Positions 2,303 through 22,320 of a stretch of DNA of 64,000 nucleotides are shown piece by piece. The position numbers and the translations under genes were made by a program. Below the pieces are notes generated by a model, which was given only the letters and a program-made list of their open reading frames with translations, made no database searches and was not told the origin of the DNA. Source of the stretch: Bacteroidota bacterium (lineage in GTDB: Bacteria > Bacteroidota > Bacteroidia > B-17B0 > Aurantibacillaceae); contig JAQZBQ010000005.1 of NCBI GenBank assembly GCA_029237825.1, positions 62,001 through 126,000 of the forward strand, written 5' to 3'. How positions within the stretch are numbered: the stretch's first letter is position 1; every line of letters begins with the position of its first letter.

Positions 2303-3478
2303 TTAATTCCTGAATTTCTTCGTATCCTTAAATATAGTTTCCAGAATTTTCTTTTCGTCCTCTGAAATTTTTAATCCACGACGCGCGTAAACCCGCTGTG
2401 CTGTTTCAAGCATTTTATCAAACCGGTATTCTTCCATACCTTCTGCGCCACCCCAACTAAAGTCTGGTATGTGAGTTGGAGGAAAACCTCCTCCAAAAAT
2501 ATTTGCTCCAACTCCAGCAACAGTTCCAGTATTAAACATGGTATTGATGCCGCATTTACTGTGGTCACCCATAATTAAACCACAAAACTGTAAACCAGTA
2601 TCCACCGGTCTCTCCTCTACATAACTAAACAATTTTACATTGCCATAATTATTTTTAAGGTTTGAATTGTTGGAGTCGGCGCCTAAATTGCACCATTCCC
2701 CAATAACACTATTTCCTAAAAAACCGTCGTGGGCCTTATTACTGAATCCAAAAATAACCGAATTATTTATTTCTCCACCAACTTTGCTATAAGGACCAAT
2801 TGTTGTGGGACCATAAACTTTTGTACCTAATTTTAAAGCAGAATGTTCGCAAAGGGCAAAGGGGCCGCGTACAACAGAGCCTTCCATAATTTCAGAATCC
2901 TTACCAACGTAAATAGGACCACTCTTTGTATTTAAAATTGCCGCTTCTATTATAGCGCCCTCCTCAATAAAAACCTCTGATGTATTTCCAATAACAGTAT
3001 TGGTTGATGAAAGCGGAAGGGAATTTCGACCATGTGTTAGCAATGCGAAATCACTTTTTATTGCTTCTCCATTTTTAGAAAAAATATCCCATACATAGTC
3101 TACTCTTAATGCTCTTGCTTCAACCTCTTTAGCAACATTTAGTGCAGAGGTAATATCAATCCTGTTTTCACTGCATCGGAATGCAATGAGTTTTCCATTT
3201 GACTTGATCCCTTCACCCGTTTCTAAATGCGATATCTGTTTAACTAAATCGCTATCGGGACAAATGCTGCCATTTATAAATAATGTTTCTCCGTGCACTG
3301 GAAGGGCATATTTTTCCTGAAGATGGGACTGACTTTGAAAAGTCATCTTACAGTTCAAAAAATGTTCCCATTTCTCAGTGATCGTTAATATTCCAATACG
3401 AATTTCTGAAACAGGTTTTGTAAAAGTTAACGGCAATAAATTGTGCCATGTAAGATCATCGAACAATGTATAATTCAT
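2303..3478 (-). CDS. GlmU-like sugar-phosphate nucleotidyltransferase/acetyltransferase (Bacteroidota type)
   Basis: Member of the alternative GlmU family of Bacteroidota, thought to supply UDP-N-acetylglucosamine or a related nucleotide sugar for peptidoglycan and glycans. The 391-residue protein has a divergent nucleotidyltransferase-like N-terminal half beginning YTLFDDLTWHNLLPLTF and FTKPVSEIRIGILTI, then a left-handed beta-helix of hexapeptide repeats (about 165-330) and a C-terminal helical tail. The classical GlmU glycine-rich nucleotide loop is absent, as is normal for this family. It is the last gene of the leftward block: its ATG lies one base after the stop of the Ig-repeat barrel gene, so they are very probably co-transcribed. 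The link between a nucleotide-sugar enzyme and surface proteins is not explained by the sequence. Confidence 0.85.
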   Translation of the reverse strand: MNYTLFDDLTWHNLLPLTFTKPVSEIRIGILTITEKWEHFLNCKMTFQSQSHLQEKYALPVHGETLFINGSICPDSDLVKQISHLETGEGIKSNGKLIAFRCSENRIDITSALNVAKEVEARALRVDYVWDIFSKNGEAIKSDFALLTHGRNSLPLSSTNTVIGNTSEVFIEEGAIIEAAILNTKSGPIYVGKDSEIMEGSVVRGPFALCEHSALKLGTKVYGPTTIGPYSKVGGEINNSVIFGFSNKAHDGFLGNSVIGEWCNLGADSNNSNLKNNYGNVKLFSYVEERPVDTGLQFCGLIMGDHSKCGINTMFNTGTVAGVGANIFGGGFPPTHIPDFSWGGAEGMEEYRFDKMLETAQRVYARRGLKISEDEKKILETIFKDTKKFRN

Positions 3479-3479
3479 C

Positions 3480-6473
3480 TTATCTTGGATTGATAGGTGT
3501 ACTTTTAGGACTTAAAGAAGGGGTTCCGCTTCCGCGTCCTGAATTATTAATTCGAATTGAATCATTTCGGTTAGGACATTCACCTTCTTTATCACCATGA
3601 TCAAGATGGGCTTTTAACGCAGAAATTGGAATCGTTATGGTTTGTGGATTTCCTTCATTTCCAGGTGGTATGTGACAAATCGTAACTTTTCTCTCATCTG
3701 TTGGATTTACATCCGCTGGCTGAATAGTTCCCGTTGTTCCCCTTGCATTTCTATATACAACAGACTCCGATTTTGTTGAAACTCCGGCGGAGTTGGATGC
3801 GGTAACTTTTAACATATTGTTGCCAGCTACAAGTGTGGTGCTGAAACTGCCTATAGTAGCATTAAAACCGAATGCCGTTACCTGCTTGCCATTTAACTCA
3901 ACCGATATTTGTTGCTTCGTAGCATTTACAACTTTAAACTCAAAGGTATATACAGGTGAAAAAACGACTTGCTTTTTAGAAGGGCTTGTAATGGAAACAA
4001 TTGGGAGCACTTCTGTTTCACCTGGTTGGGTAACATTAACAGATGGAGTATTTTTTATAATCACTGAGGGCGCGTAGGTAATTTTAACCTGTTTAAAATC
4101 TGTTCCACTTGAATTTGTTCCGCGGACAATCACTGTATTTTCTCCTACTTTCAATTTTGATTGAAAACTCACTTCCTTCCCAACGGCGTCAAAATTAAAA
4201 TTTGAAAGAGGAATACCGTTAACGGATACTTGAATTCCTGACTTTGAACTCACATTTAGTACTGAAAACTGGAAATTATAATTAAGATTTTGGGTTGAGC
4301 TTTCAGCTAAAGCTGGTAATTTTAAATTAACCGTTGGAGGTCCAGAATTTTTCACAAATCTGAAATTTATTGAACGCACTTTCTTGTCGGAGCCATGGTT
4401 ATTTACAGCTTCCACTTCAAGCATGTTGGTTCCTTGAACCAGCATTGCTGGGTACACTAAATTAAATCCATCAAAAGTAAAGTTAGTAACTGGCGACCCA
4501 TTAAAAATTACTTTAACAGATTGTGCACCTGCAACATTACTAACAGTTGCTTTAAAAGTAAAATTAGGATTCATAATGGTAGTTGCATCTACTGATGGTG
4601 TTAGAATGCTAACTATCGGAGGAGTTTTTTGTTCAATTTGAGCGGAATAGTTAATTGCAATTTGCTTCGAATCTACTCCCGAACTATTTGTTGCCTTCAC
4701 GAATAAAATATTGCTGCCGCTAACAAGTTGCGTATTGAATAGCAATTCCTTAGAAGCAGAGCTATATGTGAAATTAGTTTGAGGGTTATTGTTAAATAAT
4801 ACCTCAATATCTGACTTTGACGAAACATTTAGAACACCAAGTTTAAACGTATACATTGCGACGCTTGAATTATTGATGGGACCGGCTGGATCGATCAGAT
4901 TTACGATAGGCGGTGAAAGTTTTTCTTTCCTGTAAATGATGTGTGTTACCTTGGTATCTTCGCCTATGGTATTATTGGCAGTTATACTGATGGAGTTTGT
5001 GCCTTCCTTTAGCGGTGCCGTAAAAGAAACCTCCTTATTTGCTGGGTTAAAAGCGAACGGTGTAGATACTCCATTGAAGTATACTGCAATATTCTTTTTT
5101 TCAGTGACATTAGAAACTTGCGCTAACACATTAAATGAATTTGAGACCACTGAACTTCCAGCCTGTACTGGATTAATATAAGACACGAGCGGCGGATTTC
5201 CTCCGGCTTTTAAAGGCTCATAAACTACGGAACTTTGTTTACTTACAGTGCCAGCAGAGTTTGAAGCCACAATATCAATCAAGTTAGTTCCCTCTGACAA
5301 TAACGCACTATAACTTAACACGTTTGATTTTAAATCATAAGAAAAATCATTTCGAGCCACGCCGTTAAGCTTAAACTGAATGGATTTTTGAGAAGCTACG
5401 TTCAAAACTTTTGCTGAGATTTTATAACGCTGATCAGTTACACTGTATGCATTAGTTGGTGGGGTAACGTAACTGATCACCGGTTTTTCCAGGCGTGGCG
5501 GTACAGCAGTATTATTTGAAACAGGATTTGGATTGTTCGTTACTACTGATGAGGAAGGAACTGGAGTCGTAAGAATTGGATTAGGATTGACAGTTTCAGT
5601 AACCGGAGGCGACGATTTGAATTTCTTTTTTCCTCTTAAAGTAAATAAAAAGTTCAAACCTGTATAATGGTAATAATCTTTATTTCCCGCGATCCGGTCA
5701 TTATTCAATCTTAATTTTCCGTCAAGTAAATCTGCATTGGTTCCCTGAGGTAACGTAATTTTATATTCCAAAAGAAGTGAAAATCCCGGTGAAAACTGAT
5801 ATCCTAAGCCAATACCGCCCGAAGGTGAAAACGTTACCAAATTGCCGTGCCTGCTCCCATAAGCATATGATTCATAGTCTTTATCAATTAATCCCTTGTA
5901 TGCATTCAATGCTTTTGTTTGATTGCCAGAAGAGTCAATTTTACTAAAATCATACATTTTCTTATTACCATCCAGTAAATCGGTCATAGTGCGAAAGCTC
6001 GTAACCCCTACTCCGCCCCATAAATTTAGAATAACACCTGTTCTCTCTCTCAACCGGTTAAATGATAACTGCAATTCCAGAGAGCCTTCACCAAGGGTCA
6101 TTTTATAATTGTCAAAAACATATTGACGGTGTGAGGGAAGCGAATCGCTAAAGTTTACCAAAGGATCATAATTTCCGTTATATGCGTCGTTGGACTTTAC
6201 AAAATAATTTCGATTAAAATCCATCCCATAAGTATTTGCACCAAGATATCGACCTCTGATTGCAAATGAAAAGAAGTTTGTATGGTTTTCGCCTAAACCT
6301 TTTTCTAAGGTAAAGCCGCCGGCCATACCCCAACAGCTATAATAATCTGCTGTTTGCCAGGAACCTCCCAAATTTAAACCCAACCGCCACGCATTATGGT
6401 AACGCGCATTATCTTTCTGGGAAAAAGCCGTGATGGAAATGAAAGTTAAAAGGAGAATAAAAATTTTCTTCAT
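3480..6473 (-). CDS. Outer-membrane beta-barrel protein with six Ig-like repeats
   Basis: A 997-residue exported protein. Residues 1-19 are a signal peptide (KKIFILLLTFISITAFSQ). About 25-285 resembles an outer-membrane beta-barrel (repeated aromatic beta strands, GLGYQFSPGFSLLLEYKITLP). A Pro/Thr/Asn linker (about 290-325) leads to six tandem Ig-like modules of roughly 95 residues, each with the pattern NV...I.V.FNG....F.F....L..G.N...V.A.N..G. The C-terminus carries a Cys/His-rich ICHIPPGN...AHLDHGD module and a Ser/Pro tail. I infer that the barrel sits in the outer membrane and the repeats form a stalk. There is no recognisable T9SS sorting domain. It lies 61 bp after the PorE-like gene and one base before the GlmU-like gene. 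No name is assigned. Confidence 0.8.
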   Translation of the reverse strand: MKKIFILLLTFISITAFSQKDNARYHNAWRLGLNLGGSWQTADYYSCWGMAGGFTLEKGLGENHTNFFSFAIRGRYLGANTYGMDFNRNYFVKSNDAYNGNYDPLVNFSDSLPSHRQYVFDNYKMTLGEGSLELQLSFNRLRERTGVILNLWGGVGVTSFRTMTDLLDGNKKMYDFSKIDSSGNQTKALNAYKGLIDKDYESYAYGSRHGNLVTFSPSGGIGLGYQFSPGFSLLLEYKITLPQGTNADLLDGKLRLNNDRIAGNKDYYHYTGLNFLFTLRGKKKFKSSPPVTETVNPNPILTTPVPSSSVVTNNPNPVSNNTAVPPRLEKPVISYVTPPTNAYSVTDQRYKISAKVLNVASQKSIQFKLNGVARNDFSYDLKSNVLSYSALLSEGTNLIDIVASNSAGTVSKQSSVVYEPLKAGGNPPLVSYINPVQAGSSVVSNSFNVLAQVSNVTEKKNIAVYFNGVSTPFAFNPANKEVSFTAPLKEGTNSISITANNTIGEDTKVTHIIYRKEKLSPPIVNLIDPAGPINNSSVAMYTFKLGVLNVSSKSDIEVLFNNNPQTNFTYSSASKELLFNTQLVSGSNILFVKATNSSGVDSKQIAINYSAQIEQKTPPIVSILTPSVDATTIMNPNFTFKATVSNVAGAQSVKVIFNGSPVTNFTFDGFNLVYPAMLVQGTNMLEVEAVNNHGSDKKVRSINFRFVKNSGPPTVNLKLPALAESSTQNLNYNFQFSVLNVSSKSGIQVSVNGIPLSNFNFDAVGKEVSFQSKLKVGENTVIVRGTNSSGTDFKQVKITYAPSVIIKNTPSVNVTQPGETEVLPIVSITSPSKKQVVFSPVYTFEFKVVNATKQQISVELNGKQVTAFGFNATIGSFSTTLVAGNNMLKVTASNSAGVSTKSESVVYRNARGTTGTIQPADVNPTDERKVTICHIPPGNEGNPQTITIPISALKAHLDHGDKEGECPNRNDSIRINNSGRGSGTPSLSPKSTPINPR
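3570..3693 (-). other. ICHIPPGN/HLDHGD Cys-His module
   Basis: This part of the barrel protein encodes a short motif beginning TICHIPPGN and ending AHLDHGD followed by a Cys. The two Cys and four His are spaced in a way I associate with a recurring but poorly described module in secreted proteins of Bacteroidota and other phyla. Metal binding or a disulfide is possible; neither is shown by the sequence. Confidence 0.6.
3750..5505 (-). repeat. Six tandem Ig-like repeats (about 95 residues each)
   Basis: The protein-level repeat unit starts with PPxVxxxxP, contains an FNG turn in the middle and ends with a G-T-N...V.A.N..G strand and a final YxxxK-type linker. Six copies can be counted by eye. 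They are clearly diverged from each other at the base level, so this is not a recent expansion. Confidence 0.8.
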
Positions 6474-6534
6474 GGTACTTAAGATCTTGAGGATAACGGT
6501 GTTTTGACCTAAAGTTAATAAAATTAACTTAAAC

Positions 6535-9201
6535 CTAAAGCTTACCGCTTTCTACAATTTTAAACTCGGTTCGTCTGTTTTTTGCATGTTCTTCTTCTGA
6601 ACATTCCGAATCATTTGCGCATTTATTAAGCAATTTACTTTCGCCATAACCAATTGCCTTAAGACGGGTTTTTGCAATGCCTTTGGCTATCAGGTAATCA
6701 ACAGCCGCTTTTGCCCGCTTTTGAGAAAGCGTCATATTAAAAACATCCGAACTTCTGGAATCTGTATGCGAGCTGATTTCGATATTCAAATTTTTATTGG
6801 AATTTAAAACCGTTATTACTTTGTCGAGAATATTTTTTCCGGCAGCATCAATCTTAAAATCGCCATATGCATAGTACAAACTTTCAATAATCGTAATCGC
6901 TTTCTGCATTTCCTTATTTTTCAAATTGAGCACTTCAAGCCATGGGTCATCAACGGAGTAATCACCCATTGCCGTTCGGTCAACTTCAAGGAGGTCAAAT
7001 TGAAAGCCCCCCTTGGAGGTCCGCTTGATTTCACGGTAAATTCTACCTTTTGAATCCGCAACATAAACTTTCGTCACGGCTGCCATCTGTGGATCCGAAT
7101 CGTCAATACTAAATAAGTAATTTTGATCTGTACCAAGGTTTTTAAAAGAGAATTTCCCGTTACTATCGGTTATAATATTTTCAATTACCTCATTTTTATT
7201 GAAGATGGTAACCTTTGCATTGCTTATTGCCTTTTTATCCTGATCATATAAATATCCGTTTAAGTTCATAATTAGGTCTTTGTCATCAACATTCAGGTCA
7301 GAGATAGCAGATTTATCCACTGCTAATAAGGAGAACTGGAAATTTCCTTTGGCATCAGAACGGGCCACTTTAACTTCCTTACCGCTTTTATTTGTAAGAA
7401 TGATTTTTGAATTTAACGGTACATCATCATCTATTACCGTAATGGAGTAATTCTGATCGAGTGGCAGATTCCTGAAAGCGAAGGCACCAAACTCATTGGT
7501 AGTCGTTTCTTCAACAATATCACCGAATTCATTTTTAATAATTACTTTTTTGTTAGCTAGGGGTTTGCTTGGATTTTCGCCGTACAGTAAATTTCCAGCT
7601 AAACTTAAATCATCCTCGCTATATAAATCAGGCATGCCATTTGGATCAACCGGAAGGTTCTTAAATACAAATTTTTGTCCGGGGCTAACCGAATGCGTAA
7701 TGCGTGTAATTTTTGAATTTTTATCTGCTAAATAATACCTCGACTTGTTCTTTAAGTTGGTTTCATTCCCTTCGATTTCTGCCATGTAAATTTTATCGGC
7801 GTCGAGATCTTTAAAGGCAAAATAACCTTTTTCATTAGTCATAATTGAATCGATCGTTTTGCCGATCGAATCCAACAAATACACTTTAACGTCTTTAGCA
7901 GGATCATTGAGGTTTTCTGTCATCAATACGAATCCTTCAACCGAGGTATTCTTATTGGTATATTTATAATAATAAATATCATCCTCACCTTTCCCTCCCT
8001 CTCGGTTAGAAGAAAAATAACCGACAGAATCGTTTAAAAAAGTTATTCCAAAATCATCTGCTTTACTATTTAAAAGCATTCCCTCGTTTCTATTCAATAA
8101 CCATTTACCATTAAGTTGCTTGGCAGAAAATATATCCAAATCTCCAAAACCCGGCAAACCGTTTGAAGAAAAAAACAAGACTCCATCTTTTTTAATGGAT
8201 GGAAAAACTTCATCGCCGGAAGTGTTAATATCAAAACCTAGGTTCACTGGTTTATCCCAGCTGTCACCATTCCGTTTACATACCCATATATCCTGACCAC
8301 CCATCGTTCCGGGCATGTCGGAGGAGAAATACAAGGTATTGCCGTCAGCGCTTAACGAAGGATGGGCACATGAATAATCGTCGCTATTATAGATAAATGG
8401 CTTGGGCTTCGAAAACGACTTCCCGTTTACCTCGCTAAAATATATTTTTGCACGGTTCACGAAGTTTTTATCCTTCTTGTTTACGATATAATTAACCCGG
8501 GTATATGCGGCCATTTTTCCATCAGCTGAAAAAGTTATAGGCCCATCGTGGTAAGTTGAATTAATCTTTTTTGACAACAACTTTTCCTTTTTCAATTCAT
8601 TGTTCTTCAATTCAGCAGAAAAAATATCCAGGAAAGGCTGATTGTTGGTCAAAGACTTTTCAAAGTCAACAACATCAGCGATTTTTTCACCAACAAAAAT
8701 TAAATTATTGTTTAACACAAACGGACTAAATTCTGACCGTTTTGTATTAATCGACTCCATATTCTTTACTTCATATTCCCTTGGCCGGGATTCCCAATAT
8801 TTAATTTCCTGACAAAATTTGATTGCATTTTTAGCAGTACTGCTGTTTTGATTTTCAGCAAGAAATAATGCATACTGTGTTAAAGCTTCGTTGTATTTAT
8901 TATTTGACTTTAAGACATTTCCATAATTATAATTCACTTCTGAAGGAACTTTTCCAATTGCAACGGCTTTAGCGTAATACATTTCGGCTTCGGGGTAATT
9001 ATTCAAAATCCGATAACAATCCGCGAGCCGAATCATGGCCTGTTGCTTTTCAGGCGAATTGCCTTCTGCCACTTTTTGATACACCGGGATTGCCTTTGCA
9101 TAATTAAAGTCAGAAAAGTGCTTTTCCGCTTTTTTCATCTGACCAAAAGCGATGGATGACAAAAAAAGAACAGAAGTAAAAAGTAAACTAATTTTTTTCA
9201 T
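6535..9201 (-). CDS. PorE-like periplasmic protein: TPR, PD40 propeller, carboxypeptidase-regulatory-like and OmpA domains
   Basis: Probable peptidoglycan-anchored partner of the type IX secretion system. The 888-residue protein has a signal peptide (1-19), TPR repeats (about 20-130), a WD40-like PD40 propeller (about 155-410; SADGNTLYFSSDMPGTMGG), three or more carboxypeptidase-regulatory-like beta domains (about 425-755) and a C-terminal OmpA domain (about 775-885) with SSHTDSRSSD and the NRRTEF peptidoglycan-binding motif. This order matches PorE of Porphyromonas gingivalis. The frame is open 24 codons further upstream, but that would overlap the PorP/SprF gene and bury the signal peptide, so the ATG before KKISLLF is chosen. 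It starts 22 bp after the PorP/SprF stop; that pairing is common in T9SS organisms. Confidence 0.87.
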   Translation of the reverse strand: MKKISLLFTSVLFLSSIAFGQMKKAEKHFSDFNYAKAIPVYQKVAEGNSPEKQQAMIRLADCYRILNNYPEAEMYYAKAVAIGKVPSEVNYNYGNVLKSNNKYNEALTQYALFLAENQNSSTAKNAIKFCQEIKYWESRPREYEVKNMESINTKRSEFSPFVLNNNLIFVGEKIADVVDFEKSLTNNQPFLDIFSAELKNNELKKEKLLSKKINSTYHDGPITFSADGKMAAYTRVNYIVNKKDKNFVNRAKIYFSEVNGKSFSKPKPFIYNSDDYSCAHPSLSADGNTLYFSSDMPGTMGGQDIWVCKRNGDSWDKPVNLGFDINTSGDEVFPSIKKDGVLFFSSNGLPGFGDLDIFSAKQLNGKWLLNRNEGMLLNSKADDFGITFLNDSVGYFSSNREGGKGEDDIYYYKYTNKNTSVEGFVLMTENLNDPAKDVKVYLLDSIGKTIDSIMTNEKGYFAFKDLDADKIYMAEIEGNETNLKNKSRYYLADKNSKITRITHSVSPGQKFVFKNLPVDPNGMPDLYSEDDLSLAGNLLYGENPSKPLANKKVIIKNEFGDIVEETTTNEFGAFAFRNLPLDQNYSITVIDDDVPLNSKIILTNKSGKEVKVARSDAKGNFQFSLLAVDKSAISDLNVDDKDLIMNLNGYLYDQDKKAISNAKVTIFNKNEVIENIITDSNGKFSFKNLGTDQNYLFSIDDSDPQMAAVTKVYVADSKGRIYREIKRTSKGGFQFDLLEVDRTAMGDYSVDDPWLEVLNLKNKEMQKAITIIESLYYAYGDFKIDAAGKNILDKVITVLNSNKNLNIEISSHTDSRSSDVFNMTLSQKRAKAAVDYLIAKGIAKTRLKAIGYGESKLLNKCANDSECSEEEHAKNRRTEFKIVESGKL

Positions 9202-9223
9202 AAAGATCAAATGCAATATTAAA

Positions 9224-10171
9224 TTATAAATAACGTGGCGAAAGCGTTTTAGATTTAAATGTATTAAAATCAAAACCTATCATAATTTCATGCCCGTTTC
9301 CTAAACGTTTTTGAACCCTGCTTATTCCGGTATCAAAGGCGTAACCGATTTTAAAAACATTGGTAATATATACCTGCATCAAAGCGCCCACTGTGGCCTC
9401 CGACCTATAAAAAACCCCGAGCCATACACGTTGATTAATTAAAAAATTAAGATTACCGTCAATGTTGTTAACCGCTTTTGTGCCTTTATAAATCAGCGCC
9501 GGATTTATGACAAGGTTGTCATTTACTGAAAACCCTTTACTCACAATGGCAAATACATGTGTATTTAAACGGTAGGTCAAATCATATTCAATCTGGCTAC
9601 CAGATATATTCGTGTACGAAATTCGGTCCTGATAGATATAGGCGGAATTTAAATGTGTTGCGCTTACACCGGCATAAAATGAATTTGATTTCAAATATAT
9701 GCCGGCGTCAAAATCAGGTTTTAATTTATTTGTCGCCACGTTGGCAAAGGCATTTGTTTCCCCCGGATCTTTGTAATTCATTTTATTAAAATCAAACACA
9801 TAGTTTACCACACCGGCGCGGATACCAAAAGACATTTTCATTTTATTCGATATCGGCAAGATATAAGAAATGTTACCATAGGCAGCCGTGATCCGTTTAG
9901 GACCAATTGCATCGTTGTATGCGCTTAACCCTAATCCGATTCGCTTTTTCTTTAACGGACCGTGGAAACTAAACGATTGTGTAGAAGGAGCACCATCAAA
10001 ACCGCTCCATTGTCTCCTGATATCAACTACAGCACTCAAGGCATCTTTGGTACCAGCATACGCAGGGTTAATAACCATCTGATTGAACTGGTACTGACTA
10101 TATTGTGGGTCTTGCTGACAAACTCCACGCATTGTCATCACGCATCCTAATATTAAAAATATGTTTTTCAT
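9224..10171 (-). CDS. PorP/SprF family type IX secretion system membrane protein
   Basis: Outer-membrane beta-barrel of the PorP/SprF family. SprF is required for secretion of the adhesin SprB in Flavobacterium johnsoniae. Paralogues are commonly encoded next to cargo that carries type B sorting domains. The 315-residue protein has a signal peptide (about 1-18), the hallmark DPQYSQYQFN...NPAYAGT motif right after it, and a run of beta strands to the C-terminus. It sits 9 bp downstream of a type B cargo gene and 22 bp upstream of the PorE-like gene, which supports a dedicated role in exporting or anchoring the cargo proteins encoded upstream. The direct cargo is inferred, not shown. Confidence 0.93.
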   Translation of the reverse strand: MKNIFLILGCVMTMRGVCQQDPQYSQYQFNQMVINPAYAGTKDALSAVVDIRRQWSGFDGAPSTQSFSFHGPLKKKRIGLGLSAYNDAIGPKRITAAYGNISYILPISNKMKMSFGIRAGVVNYVFDFNKMNYKDPGETNAFANVATNKLKPDFDAGIYLKSNSFYAGVSATHLNSAYIYQDRISYTNISGSQIEYDLTYRLNTHVFAIVSKGFSVNDNLVINPALIYKGTKAVNNIDGNLNFLINQRVWLGVFYRSEATVGALMQVYITNVFKIGYAFDTGISRVQKRLGNGHEIMIGFDFNTFKSKTLSPRYL

Positions 10172-10180
10172 GTTCTAAAT

Positions 10181-14152: not shown

Positions 14153-14167
14153 TTTTCTAAAGTCCCA

Positions 14168-16948
14168 TTATTTGCCTGCAACCAATTCAACCCACCCTTT
14201 TTTTGTTCCTGCATTGATTTCAATGATATAAAAATAGGTACCTGAATCCATGGCTTTCCCGTTTGATTTTCCGTCCCAATGATTACTGTAATTATCATAA
14301 TTTACTGTCGAGAAAACTTTATTTCCCCAACGGTTAAAAACAGTTACCTTATTATCCCGAAACTTTTCGATATTATCAATTACCAAATAATCATTTAAGC
14401 CATCACCGTTCGCCGTAATGACGGTATAAACCGCTACCTCACATTCCGGATTAAAAGAAATATTAAAGAACACTTCTTTTAAACATCCTCCAGTATCAAT
14501 AGCCTGCACGGAATAAGTTGAGTTGCTTAGAGGAAATAACGTCATTGAATTGGATACCGGATTCATACTCCATGAAGGAACAGAACCATCCAACACACTA
14601 AGGCGTACTGAGTCACCTGCACATACAACACTGGGAGTAACCACAGGTATCACTTCCGAACCCGATTTTACGTTTACAAACACCGTACTGAAATTTCCGC
14701 ATCCGTTAGTACCCTGACCTAAAAGGGTGAATGTAGTTGGAGATGAAATTTGTGGAACCGGATTTGGATTAAATACACCTAAGGGCTGCCAGTAATACGT
14801 TACCGCATTTCCACTCGCTGTAAGAGCAACCGATTCTCCATTACATACAAGGGTTGAAGAAGCTGAAGCAACAACGCTTGGTAATGGCAAAATGGATATG
14901 GATAGATAGGCAGTATCGGAGCAGCCGAATCCATTCGTTCCAACAACGCTGTATACTGTGGCGGAGATAGGCTGAATAACAATAGAAGACGACAAACTAC
15001 CTGTGGACCATTGATATGAACCGGCACCACTTGCTGTAATTGACATTGTGTAACCAAAACATACATTGGTAGATGGTGAACTTATTGCAACAGTTGGCCT
15101 TGGATTCACATTAACAGAAATAGTTTTTATTGAGCTGCAACCCTGTGAGTCTGTAACCGTAAGTGAAAAGGAATGTACCGGAGTATTAGTTGGCGTAACA
15201 ACTATAGAAGATGAAGATGATCCAGTGCTCCATGAATAAACATAGGAGGGAGTTCCCCCATTAACCGTTGAACTTAAATTTACCGGCTGCCCATTGCATA
15301 CAGTAACCGTATTACTGTTTATACTCACAGTCATAGCCGGTGGCGTGGATAGAGTAAACGTCTTAGTAACAGATAAGCCGCAGCTATTAGTTATTACACA
15401 GGTGTAAAGCCCAGCACATAAACTACTTGCTACGGAAGAAGACGAAACGGCAGGTGTCCAGCTATAAGTAAATGGCGGGCCTCCATTTGCCGTAAGTGTT
15501 ATTGAACCATCACAGGCTCCTGAACACGATGGATTCATATTATTAATATTCGCCGAAACTAAAGGACACGCGTTAACCTGGATAGTTTTTGAAGTTGATG
15601 CATTTACGCCAGCTGAACTAACCGTTAATGAAATTGTATGAACACCGGGCGTTGTAAATGTAAAGGATGGGTTTTGTAAAGTGCTGGTTGTTACTGTAGA
15701 AGCAGGCGAAAAGTAGGTCCATGAAAAAATCGGTGGTGAGCTAGTAGTAGATAAATCTGTAATCGAAACGGTTTGACCTGTTGAAATTACTGATGAGGAA
15801 AGTGAAAAATTCGCCACAACGGTGGCCCCAGCAGGGGAGCATAATCCATGTGTACCAAGGAACTTTCGGTATGGACTATTCAACATAGCCGTTTGAATCC
15901 GAATCTTTTGCTCATCCGTAAACATGTACATTCCTACATCATCTGTATAATCAGCAAAATTCATAAACATAATACCTTCTGAACCGGTGGGTGGTGAATT
16001 GGTGGGACAATCATATGGAAGGTGTGGATAAGAAGGTGTTCCGAATGTATAATTTTGCTGTGGGGGCGTGTCATTGCAATAATCTGTTGCACAACTTGCA
16101 TCTCCCCATGTGTGCCTCACTCCAAAATAATGACTAAGTTCATGAGTGGCGGTTCTTCCATAATTATAAGGGGCTGAATAAACACCTGAAGGAAAGATAT
16201 TTTGGGATCCAAATACTTTCGCCCAACACCAGAGTCCATCGGTAGTTGCTGTTCCTGTACCTGATATTCCGGTTAAACCGGATAATGGCGGAAAAAAAGT
16301 AAATCCTAGTAATCCTGCAGCGCCGTTAACATCGGAAATCCAAATATTCAGGTATTTGGAAGGATTCCAAATGGTAGCCGGTTTAATCACATTGTTAAAA
16401 TGGCTCATAAAGGTAGAACTGCTTGAAAAGGAAACCGGGTCAGATGCACCGGAAATGCTGTTCCAATGGAGACGTTCTATGCCAGGCTCCGATAGATTAG
16501 TTCCAACAGAATCTTTCAGCGCCAAGCAAAATGAAATTCCAGTATTTGCAATACCAATGCGGCCAGAACCATCTTTACTTCCCGTTGAAATGACAGTATT
16601 TGAAGCATATATCTGAAAGGCGGTGGCGGGATAATTAGCAGATCCGAATCCGATACTAGAATAATCCTCATTTAAAACCTGAATTTGAGAGTTGATCTGC
16701 CCTTGAGCTAAATTGGGGAACGTTCCGATAGCCTGCCCACCATGAATAACGTGAACAATTACAGGAACCTGATAAGTTGTTTGAGGTTTAGTAACTGCCT
16801 GCAAATTTAAGAATTGAATTACCTGGTTTTGAAAGGCTGAATCATATTGCGGTCCAGGTGCAGGAGTTCCGCAACCACGGTTAGGCACCTGTGCATTCAG
16901 TATCGAATGGATAAAAACAACAAGAAATAATACAATTGTATTTTTCAT
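14168..16948 (-). CDS. M43 (pappalysin-like) zinc metalloprotease with type B T9SS sorting domain
   Basis: Secreted metalloprotease of 926 residues. Parts: signal peptide (1-19); M43 catalytic domain (about 60-365) with zinc motif HELSHYFGVRH near 268-278 and the downstream Met-turn-type segment IMFMNFADYTDD; a PKD domain (about 375-450); a SprB-like repeat (about 455-535); Ig-like modules; and a C-terminal type B sorting domain with ITANGDGLNDYLV, VFNRWG and GTYFYI. The expected role is cleavage of extracellular protein or peptide substrates at the cell surface. All catalytic ligands are present, so it should be active. It lies 6 bp after the small type B gene and 15 bp before the RCC1 protein gene, sharing its C-terminal architecture with the latter. 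Confidence 0.92.
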   Translation of the reverse strand: MKNTIVLFLVVFIHSILNAQVPNRGCGTPAPGPQYDSAFQNQVIQFLNLQAVTKPQTTYQVPVIVHVIHGGQAIGTFPNLAQGQINSQIQVLNEDYSSIGFGSANYPATAFQIYASNTVISTGSKDGSGRIGIANTGISFCLALKDSVGTNLSEPGIERLHWNSISGASDPVSFSSSSTFMSHFNNVIKPATIWNPSKYLNIWISDVNGAAGLLGFTFFPPLSGLTGISGTGTATTDGLWCWAKVFGSQNIFPSGVYSAPYNYGRTATHELSHYFGVRHTWGDASCATDYCNDTPPQQNYTFGTPSYPHLPYDCPTNSPPTGSEGIMFMNFADYTDDVGMYMFTDEQKIRIQTAMLNSPYRKFLGTHGLCSPAGATVVANFSLSSSVISTGQTVSITDLSTTSSPPIFSWTYFSPASTVTTSTLQNPSFTFTTPGVHTISLTVSSAGVNASTSKTIQVNACPLVSANINNMNPSCSGACDGSITLTANGGPPFTYSWTPAVSSSSVASSLCAGLYTCVITNSCGLSVTKTFTLSTPPAMTVSINSNTVTVCNGQPVNLSSTVNGGTPSYVYSWSTGSSSSSIVVTPTNTPVHSFSLTVTDSQGCSSIKTISVNVNPRPTVAISSPSTNVCFGYTMSITASGAGSYQWSTGSLSSSIVIQPISATVYSVVGTNGFGCSDTAYLSISILPLPSVVASASSTLVCNGESVALTASGNAVTYYWQPLGVFNPNPVPQISSPTTFTLLGQGTNGCGNFSTVFVNVKSGSEVIPVVTPSVVCAGDSVRLSVLDGSVPSWSMNPVSNSMTLFPLSNSTYSVQAIDTGGCLKEVFFNISFNPECEVAVYTVITANGDGLNDYLVIDNIEKFRDNKVTVFNRWGNKVFSTVNYDNYSNHWDGKSNGKAMDSGTYFYIIEINAGTKKGWVELVAGK

Positions 16949-16954
16949 TTTCTC

Positions 16955-17725
16955 CTATTTTCCGCTTAGTTCTACCCAGCCCTTCTTGGCCCCATTGTCA
17001 ATTTCTATTACATAGAAATATGTTCCACTTATAACTTCAGCACCGTCATTGGATTTACCGTCCCATTTGTTATCGGTATTATTATAATTGGAAGTACTCC
17101 AGATTTTGCTCCCCCAACGGTTAAAAATTGAAACTGTATTGTTTGGAAAATTCTCGATATTTTCAATCACCCAGGAATCGTTAATTCCGTCGCCGTTTGG
17201 CGTAAAGCCATTAAAAACATTGAGTTGACAAGGTTCCGTACTCGCTAAAACAGTATGAGCATACATAACAGAATCAATTGCCACATTCAAAGCATTATAT
17301 GCTTTAACATTCACGCTATAAGTTCCAGGCGTTAAACTATCAATACTCGAACAATTCTGCAAAGGGCAAACACCAATAGGCTGCCATTCATAACGAATTT
17401 GGATTGCTGAAGCCGGAGCAGTATTTAATACGAGCGATATAAAACCATCCTTCTTATTCAAACAACTTTCGTTTTGAAAAAGGGGAGTTAAACTTAATTC
17501 AAGTACACCCACAATATCAGGCTGTAAAAACCCTTGGGTGATCATCTGTGCTCCATTCGTAACAGTTGACACAATTGGTTCACCAACATTATAGTACAGT
17601 TCTACCCCAGTAGATCCAACAGCACCGCCACCTCCGGTAGTATTGAACACAGAAGGAGAAACTGTCTGACATGTAGATTGTTTAAGAAAAATTGTCATTA
17701 ATATGACGAAGAAAAAACTCCTCAC
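16955..17725 (-). CDS. Small secreted protein with type B T9SS sorting domain
   Basis: A 256-residue secreted protein of unknown activity. A signal peptide (about 1-19) is followed by an N-terminal segment with STGVELYYNVGEP and ITQGFLQP, a pattern common at the start of Bacteroidota T9SS cargo, one Ig-like domain (about 75-155) and a type B sorting domain (about 165-256; FTPNGDGINDSWV, IFNRWG, GTYFYVIEI). The only usable start that keeps the signal peptide is GTG, because an in-frame stop lies seven codons upstream and the next ATG is inside the hydrophobic core. It sits 29 bp after the fibre-like gene and 6 bp before the M43 protease gene. It might be a minimal cargo or subunit of a complex. 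Confidence 0.88.
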   Translation of the reverse strand: MRSFFFVILMTIFLKQSTCQTVSPSVFNTTGGGGAVGSTGVELYYNVGEPIVSTVTNGAQMITQGFLQPDIVGVLELSLTPLFQNESCLNKKDGFISLVLNTAPASAIQIRYEWQPIGVCPLQNCSSIDSLTPGTYSVNVKAYNALNVAIDSVMYAHTVLASTEPCQLNVFNGFTPNGDGINDSWVIENIENFPNNTVSIFNRWGSKIWSTSNYNNTDNKWDGKSNDGAEVISGTYFYVIEIDNGAKKGWVELSGK

Positions 17726-17754
17726 TTTATTGAAATTATATAATTAAAATACAT

Positions 17755-20700
17755 TTACTTAATCTTAGTAATTTGAACTATCGTATATACTTCCGGACCA
17801 AACCCCGATGCTACACCAAAGCCAGACCCAGAAGATGAGGATTGGCATTGATGCTGTATCTCATAAAGCTTAGAAGTTGTAATATTTAAAATACCCGAAA
17901 GTAAAGCGTTCGAATTAACATTTCCAGTGACATTGGCATAATTTGATTGTCCGATTATATCGTCTGTTCCATCTGTTAAATTTCTTAGCTTGAGTTGATT
18001 CCCCATAACGGTGTAAGCTGGGGCATCAACTTTTATAATATATATTCCAGGCTGTAACGTAAATTGATTTGAAACTAACGACACCAGAGACCCGTCTCCT
18101 TCAATTGTATTAAGTGTTCTAGTACGCCATCCTCCAGATGTAAAAGTTCCCCCACTAGTTCCTGAAGGTTTAACGTCTTTAAGAAAAACCGTTCTGGTTG
18201 CGTCCTGCCAACTTGCATTACCTGCTGCATCCGATGTTAACACTTTGCCTGGCCCCTGTGTTCCGTCTAAAATTCTGACAGAACCATTTATTTGCATTTT
18301 TGCAGTCGGCGCAGTTGTTCCAATTCCAACGTTTCCAGACGGACTAATTACCATACGTGCCGCATTGGCGTTATCGTCATGAAATTCTAAAATACCGGAG
18401 GTGTTTGCAGAAAAAATGGTATAACTTCTGCCGCCGCCGCCAGTTGCCTGCAAGTTTAATCCAGCTCCAAGGCCACCATTTTCAGAAACAGCAATACTTT
18501 GATAGTTACCACTGTTGGCCACATAAACCTGTCCGTTTGATTCAAGCCCTGTTGAAAAACGAGCATTTCCATTAACATCTAATTTAAAAGACGGTAATGC
18601 ATTTCCTACACCTAAATTGCCGTTGGCAACGATTACATTTCCAAAAGCGAAGCCAGTGGACTTGCTTTCATTAAATATGAGATCCTGACCTTTGATTACC
18701 AGATTATTTAACGTACCGCCCGCAGTAGAATAATGAGATTTAATTACAAAATCCGAAGAGCCTGAATTGGCGATTGCATCGCTTTTTTCAGCGCCTAACG
18801 TATATTGCTTCCCTACGTACCCGTCATACATGGAAAGTCTTAATCCAGCAAGTGTTCCTTGAGAACTTGAAGAGCTACTTAAATTTATGATAGCATCAGA
18901 AAAATTTCTTACATCCAGTCTATACTCCGGAGAAGAAGTACCGATACCAACAAGATCTCCAAGGTTGTTTTGTGTGATAATTCCAGATCCCTGCATCCAC
19001 GGAGAGGCACCTCCAACTAAATCCACATAACCACTACCGTTTTCTGAGACTTTAAATTTCCCTGAAACCTGGTCGAAGAAAATTCGTCCGCTACCACCAA
19101 ATGAAATTGGAGGAACTGTACCCATTCCGGTAACCATTAAAGATGAATCGGTTCTAATATTGCCACTCACATCCAACTTCTCAGTTGGGAAAGTTGTGCC
19201 AATTCCTACATGACCGTCCTGGTCAATTTGAAAACGAACAGCTGAAGCGTCTTTATCGGTTATGCGGAAACCAGTTGCAGTGTTTCCATCCTGACCCATA
19301 AACCACTCACTCAACGCAGTTTTGATTTGGTATCCCGTTTTAAAATTTCCCCCTGTGTTCTCAACGGATATTTGAAGCGGGTCCGCCATACCATAAACAT
19401 GAAGCGGCGATGTTGGCGAAACGGTTCCTATACCAACAAAATCACCCGGGTTGCTTTGAGTGATAATTCCGGTTCCTTGTATCCATGGAGACGTTCCAGC
19501 ACCGCCAATCAGGTCTACATAAGCTCCACCGTTTTCAGATACTTTGAACTTTTGGGCTGTACGGTCAAAGTAAATTTTACCCTCATTCGGTTGTGAATTA
19601 AACGGAGGAAAATTGTATGCTGCCATTGACAATGATGAATCAATTTTAGCTTTTCCTCCAACATAGAACCCAGCATTGTTCAAAGTGCCAAATTTGTTAA
19701 CACTTACTAAGCCATCCCCAGATACCGTAAAAACATTGTGGCCAACACTTCCATTATAATAATAAACATTATAACCCGAAGCAGGATCATTTGCCGCGGA
19801 AGTTACTGAATTCATCCAAAACTTTGTTGGCTCTGCAGCATTTGTAAACTTTAATCGTGCAAATGCGTCCCCTCCGGTTTGTTTTAAATGCAGATGTGAA
19901 TTGGATGTTGAAGAAGGATGATTAATTTCCATTTTATCGGTCAGTGGTCCGCCTGTACCAACTCCAACTCCGTTAGACAGCAATGTTGGATGTAAAACTC
20001 CACCGGAATTTGACCAGACAGCAAGAGAAGAAAGACTGACCGAGTTAGTCGGTGGCCCAGATGTCAAAGTTGTTCCTATTAATGACAATGGTGAAGCAAT
20101 TCCACTCACCGAAAAAGTATTTCCGGCCTGATTGACAATGATATTGGCATTACCAGCAACGACAGAAGCTGTTGGAATAGTAACAGTATTTGCGCCTGTG
20201 ATGGATAATGAATTACCAGTAACAGATAAAGATTGATTTGGTGAAGATAAAGTATAATTCGGTGCAGTTCCAGTAACATTAATCCCTGTGCTTCCTGTGA
20301 TAACAGTAGTACTCGAAGTAGGTATCGTTAATGTCTGAGACGGATAAGATCCTATTAATGATCCACCAACCACATTTAAACTTGGTGTTACTGAACTCAC
20401 AGTATAACTCGGAGCAGAACCTAATATGCTGACATTTGTTCCTGGTGTTAATGATGTTGTTGCACCTATAGGCAAAGTAACCGTGTTACCACCTGTAATG
20501 GAAAGAGAATTACTGTTTATTGTCAGTGATTGATTGGGCGACGATAACGTATAGTTAGGTGCTGTACCCGTCATAGATATTCCCGTGCCAGGTGTATAAG
20601 TATTTAAAGCAACCGTATTTCCCCCTGCTGACAACACATTGTTATTTGTTCCTGTTAAAGTGAGGCTTGTTGCATTGATCGCTGATGTACTTGTACTAAT

Positions 20701-22146
20701 ACCATTTGTTATCTGCACGACATTTCCTCCGGGAATACTGATTGAATAGGCCGGTGCACTTATGGTATAATTTGGAGCCGAACCAGTAACATTTACATTG
20801 ACTCCTGGTGTAACCGAAGTTGCTGGAGATGACGGTAAAAGCACTGTATTTCCACCAGGGCCGTTTATTGTTAAGGAATTAGAGTTTACTGTTAAGCTAG
20901 GACTTGGAAGCACAACGGAATTCCCATTGCTAATCGTTAACGAACCGCTGTTAATACTAAGGGTTGGATTTGGAACACTCACAGTAAATGTGCTTCCGGT
21001 TGTAGGTGTGACTGTTGCCATTCCTCCCCCAACAACACTAATTGTATTTGATCCGGTTCCTACAAGTGTAGCGGTGGTTACAACAGTCCCCTGAGAAAAA
21101 GTAAGCACGTTGGTACCGTTATTATAAGACAAGTTTGGTGCAGGTAAGGTTTGCCAAATTGCATTTCCGGCACCATCATTGGTCAACACATCCCCGGCAT
21201 TTGTAAACGTTCCGACTGCCAGGTGTAGTGCATTGGCATAAATTTGTGGTGATGATATGCTCGCATCAAATCTTCCTGCTCCTACAACGTGAAAAGTTGC
21301 TTGCGGCGTCGTTGTGCCAACACCCATATTACTGCCGTCAAAATAAAAATTCGTTCTGGGAAGGGTATCCCACACCAAACCATTATTATACATAAACTGA
21401 CCACTGTATGCATTTGGCAAGTTAGTACCTGCCGGCACATTCACAGTAAAGTTGGGGTAAACACCGGTAATAGTAGCACTACCTGCTCCACTTAATGAAA
21501 CTGTCTGGTCTGGTGCGACAGTTGGCGTATTAATTGTAAAGTTAGGATACGTACCGGTAACTGTTGTTGAGCCTGTAGCATTCAGTGTTATTGTTTGATC
21601 AGGTGCCGTATTGGAAATTGTGCTTCCGGATACATTGATACCAGTTCCTGCAGTATATACAGTAGCAGCAGGAATATTAATAGAATAGCTGCCACCAGCT
21701 GATGTTACCGTATTGGGGGCATTAACGGAAATAGTTGGGATGGGACTGGCGTTTCCTGACGTTTGAGCATATAGCGCAAAGGGGACACTCATAAATTGCT
21801 GTGTTCCTACGGATGAATAAGAAGTTCCTCCGCTCGGGTCCATTGACACTTCAAGATAATATGGTCCGTTCGCCCAGTTAATTCCCGTGAAAGAAGCGTT
21901 GTTAACCGAACCGATTCCGAGTGTGAACAAACCAAAAGGGTTGGTTGTTTTGTTGTGGGCTTCTGAAAAAATTACAGGTCCAGCAGCGCTTCCTTGATGC
22001 AAGTCCAATTTAATTCCAATATTCTGGTTGGCTAATAGCGAACCACTGGAATTTCGTGCAATACCTTGGTAACTAATCTCCTGAGGAGCCTGACCGTAAG
22101 TGAAGATGGAAATAGAAATCAGTAAAGTAAAAATTAAATGTTTCAT
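17755..22146 (-). CDS. Giant fibre-like surface protein with beta-strand repeats
   Basis: A 1463-residue exported protein. A signal peptide (1-18) precedes a domain typical of Bacteroidota surface proteins (about 19-130; QEISYQGIARNSSG, MSVPFALYAQTSG). Then come long Ser/Thr/Asn/Gly-rich stretches with six or so degenerate units built on NSNSLSITGGNTVTLP (about 395-685), and later several GIGT..PT..LDV.GN and GGAYVDLIGGAG motifs like those of phage tail fibres and trimeric adhesins. The C-terminus (about 1320-1463) forms a separate jelly-roll-like head. There is no type A or type B sorting domain and no S74 chaperone domain. It is the first gene of the leftward block. A role as an adhesive or structural fibre is inference. 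Confidence 0.82.
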   Translation of the reverse strand: MKHLIFTLLISISIFTYGQAPQEISYQGIARNSSGSLLANQNIGIKLDLHQGSAAGPVIFSEAHNKTTNPFGLFTLGIGSVNNASFTGINWANGPYYLEVSMDPSGGTSYSSVGTQQFMSVPFALYAQTSGNASPIPTISVNAPNTVTSAGGSYSINIPAATVYTAGTGINVSGSTISNTAPDQTITLNATGSTTVTGTYPNFTINTPTVAPDQTVSLSGAGSATITGVYPNFTVNVPAGTNLPNAYSGQFMYNNGLVWDTLPRTNFYFDGSNMGVGTTTPQATFHVVGAGRFDASISSPQIYANALHLAVGTFTNAGDVLTNDGAGNAIWQTLPAPNLSYNNGTNVLTFSQGTVVTTATLVGTGSNTISVVGGGMATVTPTTGSTFTVSVPNPTLSINSGSLTISNGNSVVLPSPSLTVNSNSLTINGPGGNTVLLPSSPATSVTPGVNVNVTGSAPNYTISAPAYSISIPGGNVVQITNGISTSTSAINATSLTLTGTNNNVLSAGGNTVALNTYTPGTGISMTGTAPNYTLSSPNQSLTINSNSLSITGGNTVTLPIGATTSLTPGTNVSILGSAPSYTVSSVTPSLNVVGGSLIGSYPSQTLTIPTSSTTVITGSTGINVTGTAPNYTLSSPNQSLSVTGNSLSITGANTVTIPTASVVAGNANIIVNQAGNTFSVSGIASPLSLIGTTLTSGPPTNSVSLSSLAVWSNSGGVLHPTLLSNGVGVGTGGPLTDKMEINHPSSTSNSHLHLKQTGGDAFARLKFTNAAEPTKFWMNSVTSAANDPASGYNVYYYNGSVGHNVFTVSGDGLVSVNKFGTLNNAGFYVGGKAKIDSSLSMAAYNFPPFNSQPNEGKIYFDRTAQKFKVSENGGAYVDLIGGAGTSPWIQGTGIITQSNPGDFVGIGTVSPTSPLHVYGMADPLQISVENTGGNFKTGYQIKTALSEWFMGQDGNTATGFRITDKDASAVRFQIDQDGHVGIGTTFPTEKLDVSGNIRTDSSLMVTGMGTVPPISFGGSGRIFFDQVSGKFKVSENGSGYVDLVGGASPWMQGSGIITQNNLGDLVGIGTSSPEYRLDVRNFSDAIINLSSSSSSQGTLAGLRLSMYDGYVGKQYTLGAEKSDAIANSGSSDFVIKSHYSTAGGTLNNLVIKGQDLIFNESKSTGFAFGNVIVANGNLGVGNALPSFKLDVNGNARFSTGLESNGQVYVANSGNYQSIAVSENGGLGAGLNLQATGGGGRSYTIFSANTSGILEFHDDNANAARMVISPSGNVGIGTTAPTAKMQINGSVRILDGTQGPGKVLTSDAAGNASWQDATRTVFLKDVKPSGTSGGTFTSGGWRTRTLNTIEGDGSLVSLVSNQFTLQPGIYIIKVDAPAYTVMGNQLKLRNLTDGTDDIIGQSNYANVTGNVNSNALLSGILNITTSKLYEIQHQCQSSSSGSGFGVASGFGPEVYTIVQITKIK
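20100..20962 (-). repeat. Degenerate 45-50-residue beta-strand repeats in the fibre-like protein
   Basis: About six units alternate a NSxSLxIxGxNTVxLP strand pair with a TPGxxxxxTGxAPNYTxSxP strand pair. The phrase APNYTLSSPNQSL recurs almost unchanged, pointing to expansion by internal duplication. The composition is almost entirely Ser, Thr, Asn, Gly and Val, as in beta-helical or trimeric fibres. Confidence 0.7.
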
Positions 22147-22320
22147 AAATTATTGAATTTAAATCAAGAAGTAAAGTTTCTCCTAAAAACGAAGAATGTT
22201 AAAATTATGCAAAATAATTCAACAGAGGCAAAGAATTAACAGTTGAATGAGGAAAATTAAATGTTAAAAACAGAAATACTATCGGTAAACAGTATTTAAT
22301 AAAAAAGATATGGTATTATT

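Follow-up and report, generated by a model that had tools for sequence, protein, structure and literature searches.

A fibre without a sorting signal and its proposed small type 9 adaptor: a Bacteroidota gene block that may build a static surface assembly on a PorP-PorE anchor

In the available portions of the type 9 secretion system (T9SS) papers cited here, what defines a substrate is that the cargo carries its own sorting domain. The PorE-PorP-PG1035 complex of Porphyromonas gingivalis combines a type B CTD protein with a PorP-family barrel and PorE (PMC9143113), and PorE/SprF-like/type B operons of F. johnsoniae, e.g. Fjoh_3950-3952, have been proposed to provide static anchoring to the cell wall (PMC12618676); as far as the available text of these two papers goes, such complexes are described without a fibre. 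For Bdellovibrio MAT fibres, the surface partner of the N-domain is described, in the available part of the paper, as awaiting identification (PMC10769870).

We analysed a 64,000-nucleotide stretch of a Bacteroidota contig (the window), in which eight consecutive minus-strand ORFs span positions 2303-22146, where the original prediction had put them (Table 1). The seven gaps between the genes measure 1, 61, 19, 9, 15, 6 and 29 bp, so that the predicted spacing of 1-61 bp holds; these values place the start of the PorE-like gene at about 9204, which is likelier than the listed 9273. Matches to Pfam and NCBIfam profiles bear out the earlier annotations of GlmU, PorP/SprF, the PorE-like protein and three type B proteins including the M43 protease. 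By gene content, the set of cargo, PorP/SprF and PorE-like protein matches a type of static T9SS anchor for type B proteins that is already in the literature. We coined the names GEP-QGF, adaptor and c256 for this analysis.

Table 1. Features of the gene block and its upstream flank, in window coordinates.
Feature	Position	Strand	Evidence or remark
77-aa PspC-domain gene	22321..22554	-	PF04024 29.5 bits, cutoff 25; upstream, outside module
174-bp gap between PspC-domain and fibre genes, candidate operon start	22147..22320	-	one weak promoter-like match 22231-22204, 9 of 12
Fibre, 1463 aa: signal peptide (by eye), MAT-like N-domain, beta-rich repeat shaft, no T9SS sorting domain	17755..22146	-	
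MAT-like N-domain of fibre	21772..22092	-	A3 profile match; NF053851 Bdello_MAT_N E 2.1e-5; AlphaFold2
Adaptor c256, 256 aa: signal peptide (by eye), GEP-QGF segment, SprB-like Ig domain, type B sorting domain	16955..17725	-	TIGR04131 62.5 bits, cutoff 35
GEP-QGF segment of adaptor, proposed fibre dock	17513..17668	-	A2 match 7.8e-26
Type B CTD of adaptor	16970..17221	-	CHU_C 101 bits
M43 metalloprotease, PKD and SprB-type repeats, type B CTD	14168..16948	-	Pfam/NCBIfam; HELSHYFGVRH motif visible
RCC1-propeller protein, SprB-type repeat, type B CTD	10181..14152	-	Pfam/NCBIfam
PorP/SprF shuttle, C-tail without cysteine	9224..10171	-	PF11751 2.7e-68; TIGR03519 236 bits, cutoff 90.55
Long PorE-like anchor, 889 aa: TPR, PD40 propeller, CarboxypepD_reg, OmpA	6535..9204	-	Pfam
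OmpA domain of PorE-like protein, SSHTDSRSSD...LSQKRA motif	6607..6876	-	PF00691 7e-18
Ig-repeat barrel protein, optional accessory	3480..6473	-	directly after PorE in 10/18 relatives
alt_bact_glmU, housekeeping neighbour, not counted in assembly	2303..3478	-	TIGR03991 449 bits

As had also been predicted, no hairpin terminator separates the genes: we found zero minus-strand terminator-like sites in the seven gaps, and all such sites inside the block fall within coding sequence. Counted on both strands, terminator-like sites show no strong excess over shuffles (6 against 7.6, sd 2.9, expected; 20 against 13.1, sd 3.6, expected), and the overall numbers of promoter-like matches resemble those in shuffled sequence (22 against 29.4; 47 against 39.7). 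The same-strand run starts before the fibre gene, with the PspC-domain gene and genes whose translations we take to be DUF2851, cytochrome-c-like, sigma-54-type and MiaB proteins, and the gap between the PspC-domain and fibre genes is a candidate operon start with a weak promoter match. Tandem-repeat and tRNA searches returned nothing relevant to the block.

The PorE-like protein exceeds the Pfam cutoffs for TPR_12, PD40, CarboxypepD_reg and OmpA. We call the protein PorE-like because it falls under the cutoffs of the NCBIfam PorE models (T9SS_PorE 369 bits, cutoff 600; CHU_0125 440, cutoff 620). Its first 40 residues (MMKKISLLFTSVLFLSSIAFGQMKK...) contain no cysteine, so the protein does not bear the mark of a lipoprotein. 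TIGR04131 is over its cutoff in three block proteins, giving three TIGR04131/CHU_C type B sorting domains, and the type B CTD protein directly upstream of PorP is the RCC1 protein.

The gene order of this core is conserved. We compared 18 relatives' loci, one per genome and picked from those fetched, leaving out the loci L090-L092, which are more distant, and a second PorP copy in one genome (G013, locus L058), where PorP sits at a contig end. PorE follows PorP in 18/18, and an adaptor lies upstream in 14/18 (13 within the stretch, one in an adjoining stretch), which supports the idea that the cargo keeps company with its secretion partner and with the peptidoglycan anchor. Gene order as a whole proved less uniform: PorP-PorE is kept in all 18 loci, but two genomes (G009, G012) have no module between DUF2851 and GlmU, so that the break-up of gene order named beforehand as counting against the original prediction is seen in part.

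The original prediction had counted GlmU in the assembly and cast the Ig-repeat protein as its stalk. GlmU was rejected despite its shared strand and 1-bp gap, being a near-universal single-copy housekeeping gene present in one copy each in 55/60 genomes, including genomes without the module. Judged by eye, the N-part of the Ig-repeat protein resembles a barrel of 8 strands; a PDB sequence search with it gave nothing noteworthy (best E 0.27). With such a barrel the repeats would face the periplasm, so they are more likely periplasmic than an outer stalk.

We found that the fibre and its homologues are variable at one end and conserved at the other. A T9SS signal carried by the fibre itself was rejected, since neither TIGR04131 nor TIGR04183 hits any of the fibre C-termini (0/75, with that of the window fibre among them) at an E threshold of 0.01. 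These far ends share 9% mean column identity, and tip domains among them comprise S74 in 7, H_lectin in 7 and C1q in 5. The N-domain (residues 21-120) is confidently predicted by AlphaFold2 as a beta-sandwich, with pLDDT blocks of 83-95. The Bdellovibrio MAT N-domain model (Bdello_MAT_N, NF053851) matched 10/10 rows of A3, our fibre N-domain profile, with E values no higher than 0.01 (best 1.5e-10); the scores for the window fibre (22.8-24.4 bits) and A3 row 1 all lie under the NCBIfam cutoff of 60. A PDB profile search with the N-domain found no relative (best E 0.16); with its model, Foldseek gave a single match below E 0.001, the phage XM1 neck (4.6e-4), and VIA-align gave common beta-sandwich matches (best Z 7.0). 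Because these amount to one match and common beta-sandwiches, we claim no fold family. We infer that the fibre is trimeric.

The adaptor, assessed as a T9SS substrate, has both a signal peptide (by eye) and a type B sorting domain. Its profile best matched the PDB through the type B CTD (Aureispira GhpA, 2e-16) and next through the Ig-like part (phage Hoc, 0.0016). The GEP-QGF segment is short (about 50 aa), N-terminal and conserved across 16 aligned adaptors; modelled alone it reaches only low confidence (pLDDT about 44-57), which can mean either a partner-dependent fold or merely a shallow alignment.

Fibre and adaptor recur together across the phylum. Among 60 related genomes, the window genome included, a same-strand fibre N-domain lies within 8 kb of 58/70 GEP-QGF matches, where random placement predicts 0.57. 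When 118 phylum genomes were taken as a second sample, 19/20 matches outside the window genome had a fibre, against 0.11 expected; both expectations assume genomes of 3.5-3.6 Mb. The second sample is the better test, because the seeds of A2 (GEP-QGF) and A3 were taken from loci adjoining PorP; the two samples share at least four genomes (G000, G050, G055 and G057). The 12/70 matches without a detected fibre nearby are in some cases at contig ends and in others not (e.g. G045:C4, G006, G022), and in G006 and G022 the adaptor's immediate upstream neighbour is not a fibre. In the reverse direction, 74/133 fibre N-domains in the 60 genomes were paired at the first threshold, and a broader model added 19. 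Of the 59 unpaired sites, the ORF step missed one (L263); among the 58 re-examined, 18 met a contig end and were set aside, and 19 had neither adaptor nor contig end in reach. In the second sample, 21/55 fibre N-domains outside the window genome have a GEP-QGF match. All eight fibres of one family there (f42) lack such a match; before each comes a protein of 169-182 aa whose tail is weakly type A-like, and 2 of these 8 proteins score weakly for GEP-QGF. Together, these data suggest that fibres lacking the export tag often go with a very small partner that has one, possibly their carrier or holder on the cell surface. Neither the missing signal of the fibre nor this pairing had been part of the original prediction.

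The adaptor's own signal tracks PorP. We typed the tails of 79 collected adaptors as type B (46) or type A-like (33) with a home-made HMM and a motif rule, counting repeated proteins once by identity and excluding adaptor ORFs at locus ends; an NCBIfam scan of 65 adaptors found TIGR04131 in 32 and TIGR04183 in 55, with cross-matches. Counted directly in the collected loci, PorP lies within four same-strand genes downstream of 41/46 type B adaptors and 1/33 type A adaptors. Since this set mixes PorP-chosen and GEP-QGF-chosen loci, we quote the PorP contrasts from a PorP-chosen scan, which yielded 83 PorP genes from the best 80 of 589 loci; several of these loci look like the same assemblies as the surveyed genomes, and the scan and the genome survey are not independent. 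In these best 80 of 589 loci, a fibre N-domain lies upstream of 12/20 adaptor-linked PorP genes versus 0/63 others, PorE exceeds 800 aa in 16/16 versus 3/55, and PorE comes next in 19/20 adaptor-linked cases. No cysteine occurs in the last 25 residues of PorP in 37 adaptor-linked loci, PorP ORFs at locus ends excluded (the window PorP tail ends TFKSKTLSPRYL), and Cys-X-Cys is likewise absent from the C-tails of 85 other PorP proteins, so that the tail test does not discriminate.

On balance we favour the reading that the block builds one static surface-fibre assembly, with an adaptor-displayed fibre on a PorP-PorE anchor. It draws on the observed genes, domains and conserved gene order, on the phylum-wide GEP-QGF/fibre pairing and on the link between signal type and PorP. 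The adaptor c256 would be exported by the general T9SS; the block is not the self-contained set once supposed, since the SprA translocon lies on another contig. A dedicated PorP/SprF barrel would then hold c256, and the long PorE-like protein would tie that barrel to peptidoglycan. The exposed GEP-QGF segment would dock the conserved N-domain of the trimeric fibre, so that a signal-less fibre would be displayed at the surface through an adaptor in trans, its variable far end doing the binding. The M43 and RCC1 proteins would be further type B cargo on the same PorP-PorE base. They lie between adaptor and PorP, and the PorP of this block could thus serve them instead of c256, although we assume that it serves c256.

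A bolder version, two-component type 9 secretion, we regard as possible but doubtful: the sorting-domain adaptor would capture the signal-less trimeric fibre in the periplasm through GEP-QGF, and the pair would cross the outer membrane together. If so, a change of adaptor tail from A to B would switch the same fibre class from the type A route, which is PorV-dependent, to a private PorP-PorE wall anchor, and the same N-domain chemistry could explain MAT fibre retention in Bdellovibrio.

It is unlikely, in our judgement, that only the type B proteins form a PorP-PorE complex, as in PG1035, with the fibre exported separately and a mere operon neighbour. The published complexes, in their available descriptions, have no fibre (PMC9143113, PMC12618676); one genome (G006, locus L055) has adaptor, PorP and PorE without an adjoining fibre; and neither adaptor nor fibre occurs at 63/83 PorP genes in the best 80 of 589 loci. 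Against this, the fibre-adaptor pair recurs away from PorP, 32/33 type A adaptors having no PorP within four genes downstream and 31/33 having a fibre beside them, and the pairing was replicated in the second sample; the pair is thus not specific to this operon. We consider it similarly improbable that the GEP-QGF protein only assists export, for instance by chaperoning the fibre in the periplasm or at the surface, and does not anchor it lastingly. Its short conserved segment with no confident fold alone would suit a helper, as would short adaptors with hardly more left than that segment and the sorting domain; the PorP beside type B adaptors and the PorE next to adaptor-linked PorP suit lasting anchorage better. 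Least probable is an Ig-repeat outer stalk: the gene lies within the block and follows PorE in 10/18 relatives, but it does not in 8/18 (one, G019, at a contig end), it sits with GlmU away from PorP in G014, its eight-strand N-part predicts periplasmic repeats, and Pfam and NCBIfam scans found no T9SS signal on the protein.

As to the preferred adaptor-displayed fibre, our searches of the open-licence PMC literature turned up no description of a T9SS adaptor that serves fibres. Widespread adhesive fibres that lack a sorting domain and commonly lie beside a tiny sorting-domain protein suggest that export or anchoring can be supplied in trans, which would bring a large set of surface adhesins within reach of the T9SS.

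Compared with PorE-PorP-PG1035, as described in the available part of PMC9143113, the block likewise has a type B CTD protein, a PorP-family barrel and a PorE-like OmpA-domain protein, here encoded together; it differs in having several type B proteins and a signal-less fibre, and in a PorE-like protein that is longer and has no lipoprotein cysteine near its N-terminus. The three-gene core and its order are the same as in Fjoh_3950-3952 of F. johnsoniae, whereas the available text of PMC12618676 mentions neither fibre nor GEP-QGF adaptor; in the present block, another protein seems to be what the smallest type B protein serves. The SprB/SprF gliding adhesin pair, in the part of PMC12635249 considered, similarly relies on an SprF-like barrel to hold type B cargo, but the block's PorP has no C-tail cysteines and a PorE-like gene adjoins it. 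On these two grounds a gliding, SprB-like role is not favoured and the block's system is predicted to be static and off the gliding track; the missing cysteine is consistent with a static complex, but weakly. Finally, the mosaic adhesive trimer (MAT) fibres of Bdellovibrio bacteriovorus, as far as the available text of PMC10769870 describes them, share with the fibres here a constant N-end, a variable C-end and, in some, S74 tips, and by HMM the N-domains may be related, although the window-fibre scores are under the NCBIfam cutoff and Bdellovibrio lies outside the Bacteroidota; the GEP-QGF adaptor offers a concrete kind of partner to consider for the MAT-type N-domain.

All eight genes of the original prediction lie on the minus strand and together fill 2303-22146. 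From fibre to GlmU, their gaps measure 29, 6, 15, 9, 19, 61 and 1 bp, and the claim that these gaps lack terminators held: no minus-strand terminator-like site was found in any of them. The best place for a promoter is the 174 bp before the fibre gene, which contain one weak match. The block is not isolated on the fibre side, because a PspC-domain gene and further same-strand genes continue upstream; the former, a short gene, lies between DUF2851 and the fibre, just outside the block first drawn. The view of the block as a self-contained set did not survive, as it depends on a shared translocon in a genome with a single SprA. This genome also has 18 PorP/SprF matches and 52 CHU_C matches (48 over the cutoff), and the block is thus one of many type B loci.

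Genes of the block in order of transcription, with associated features
Feature	Order	Length	Sorting domain	Strand	Coordinates
Fibre	1	1463 aa		minus	17755-22146
c256 (adaptor)	2	256 aa	type B CTD	minus	16955-17725
M43 protease	3	926 aa	type B CTD	minus	
RCC1-repeat protein	4	1323 aa	type B CTD	minus	
PorP/SprF	5	315 aa		minus	
PorE-like protein	6	889 aa		minus	
Ig-repeat barrel protein	7	997 aa		minus	
alt-GlmU	8	391 aa		minus	
PspC-domain gene				minus	22321-22554
CTD of c256					16970-17221
Cys/His motif of Ig-repeat protein					3567-3689

We found a short conserved segment at the start of c256, GEP..T..QGFxQP, here termed GEP-QGF; relatives bearing this segment are called adaptors. NCBIfam models detected no sorting domain on the window fibre. 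Its first ~110 residues weakly match the N-domain model of the Bdellovibrio mosaic adhesive trimer (MAT) fibres, with scores below the curated cutoff; all 10 N-domains in our fibre set match this model. We searched 60 related genomes separately with the GEP-QGF segment alone and the fibre N-domain alone, using models seeded from related loci. These searches returned 70 GEP-QGF matches in 43 genomes and 133 fibre N-domains in 50, counts lowered on both sides by the many draft assemblies. A same-strand fibre N-domain lay within 8 kb of 58 of the 70 matches, versus 0.57 expected. For adaptors of 240-300 aa the fibre was upstream in 21/28 and downstream in none; for those below 240 aa it was mostly downstream (30/38; upstream in 4), and three of the four longer adaptors had one. 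In the reverse direction, a first pass placed a partner within 12 kb of 74 of the 133 fibres. When 58 others were re-examined with a broader model, 19 gained a partner, 2 had a small sorting-domain neighbour instead, 18 ran into a contig end and 19 had no partner nearby.

The pairing recurred among 118 genomes drawn evenly from the phylum, with the window genome's matches left out: for 19 of 20 GEP-QGF matches there was a nearby same-strand fibre N-domain (0.11 expected), and all 14 genomes with the segment contained a fibre. A GEP-QGF match accompanied 21 of 55 fibres in this sample. One fibre family (f42, n=8) had none at threshold; before each of the eight members comes a protein of 169-182 aa whose tail is weakly type A-like, which suggests, without proving, a diverged adaptor.

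Sorting signals were found on the adaptor side. The tails of 79 collected adaptors, 65 of them covered by the NCBIfam scan, were type B in 46 and type A-like in 33. No T9SS sorting domain was found in the C-terminal 160 aa of any of 75 fibres; the mean column identity of these ends was only 9%, and some bear S74, H-lectin, C1q, collagen or similar domains. PorP followed within four genes for 41/46 type B adaptors versus 1/33 type A. In a scan that selected loci by PorP only and kept the best 80 of 589, with 83 PorP genes in all, a fibre lay upstream of 12/20 adaptor-linked genes versus 0/63 others, and a long PorE (>800 aa) accompanied 16/16 countable adaptor-linked genes versus 3/55 others. 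Neither adaptor nor fibre N-domain was found upstream of the 15 other window-genome PorP genes examined. No cysteine occurred in the last 25 residues of 37 adaptor-linked PorPs; Cys-X-Cys was absent from PorP tails of both groups, so the cysteine test separates them little. The type B CTD of the adaptor family, to which that of c256 belongs, resembles the C-terminal end of grappling hook protein A from Aureispira (PDB 9flp, E 2e-16).

Together, these links between adaptor, fibre and anchor, all genomic, make an adaptor-displayed fibre the most likely reading of the block. We propose that the T9SS would export c256, which PorP would hold; the PorE-like protein, through its OmpA domain, would anchor PorP on peptidoglycan, and GEP-QGF would hold the fibre N-domain. 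The fibre may either ride through SprA with the adaptor or be caught at the surface, and the M43 and RCC1 proteins would be extra cargo, variable among relatives. Structure prediction gave a confident beta-sandwich for the fibre N-domain, for which PDB profile search and structure comparison returned no telling match. The Ig-like and CTD parts of c256 were confidently predicted; GEP-QGF alone reached a pLDDT of about 44-57, though conserved in sequence. This low value would fit a segment that orders on its partner, and a shallow alignment (16 sequences) could give the same.

Gene order was compared at 18 loci, each from a different genome and carrying a PorP orthologue: PorE followed PorP in all and the Ig-repeat protein came next in 10. 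Orthologues of c256 lay upstream in 13, and a 14th (G016) in an adjoining stretch (L088); the next gene upstream was fibre-labelled in 10 of these 14, with a contig start there in three and no fibre in G006. In G014, PorP-PorE lies on a separate contig and the Ig-repeat protein is still with GlmU. GlmU is single copy in each of 55/60 genomes, and in G009 and G012 it lies near DUF2851 with the module absent; we infer that it is an old neighbour beside which the module was gained or lost. These apparent empty sites (L064 in G009, L065 in G012) have DUF2851 close to GlmU, with one 337-aa gene between them in L064.

Other arrangements were observed. L042 (G026) has four consecutive fibre-labelled genes ahead of one adaptor, which suggests interchangeable tips on one base. 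At L265 (G035:C84), a GEP-QGF type B adaptor is followed by a 468-aa PorP-matching protein and then a fibre N-domain, an altered order of genes. At L207 (G056:C15) and L211 (G014:C3), a short type B adaptor, a fibre and a small gene precede a 538-aa protein that matches PorP and PorE models, possibly a shuttle-anchor fusion.

The N-terminal part of the Ig-repeat protein appears, by eye count on its alignment, to be an 8-strand barrel; if so, the Ig repeats would be periplasmic, perhaps a spacer to the wall. Its C-terminus carries a Cys/His motif (CHIPPGN...AHLDHGD), with further copies in relatives G026, G032 and G003; Pfam models (E up to 0.01) matched nothing in that part of the window protein.

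The window anchor protein falls below the NCBIfam PorE cutoff, and we therefore call it PorE-like. Published work describes a P. gingivalis complex of PorE, PorP and the type B protein PG1035, and F. johnsoniae operons, proposed to be static, that combine a PorE homologue with a type B substrate and its SprF-like shuttle (PMC9143113; PMC12618676). In our named-genome scan, which kept the best 80 of 589 loci, PorE was the next gene after 75 of the 83 PorP genes. Given these published complexes and operons and this wide occurrence, the PorE-PorP-type B core of the window block is a further, new example of an already known kind.
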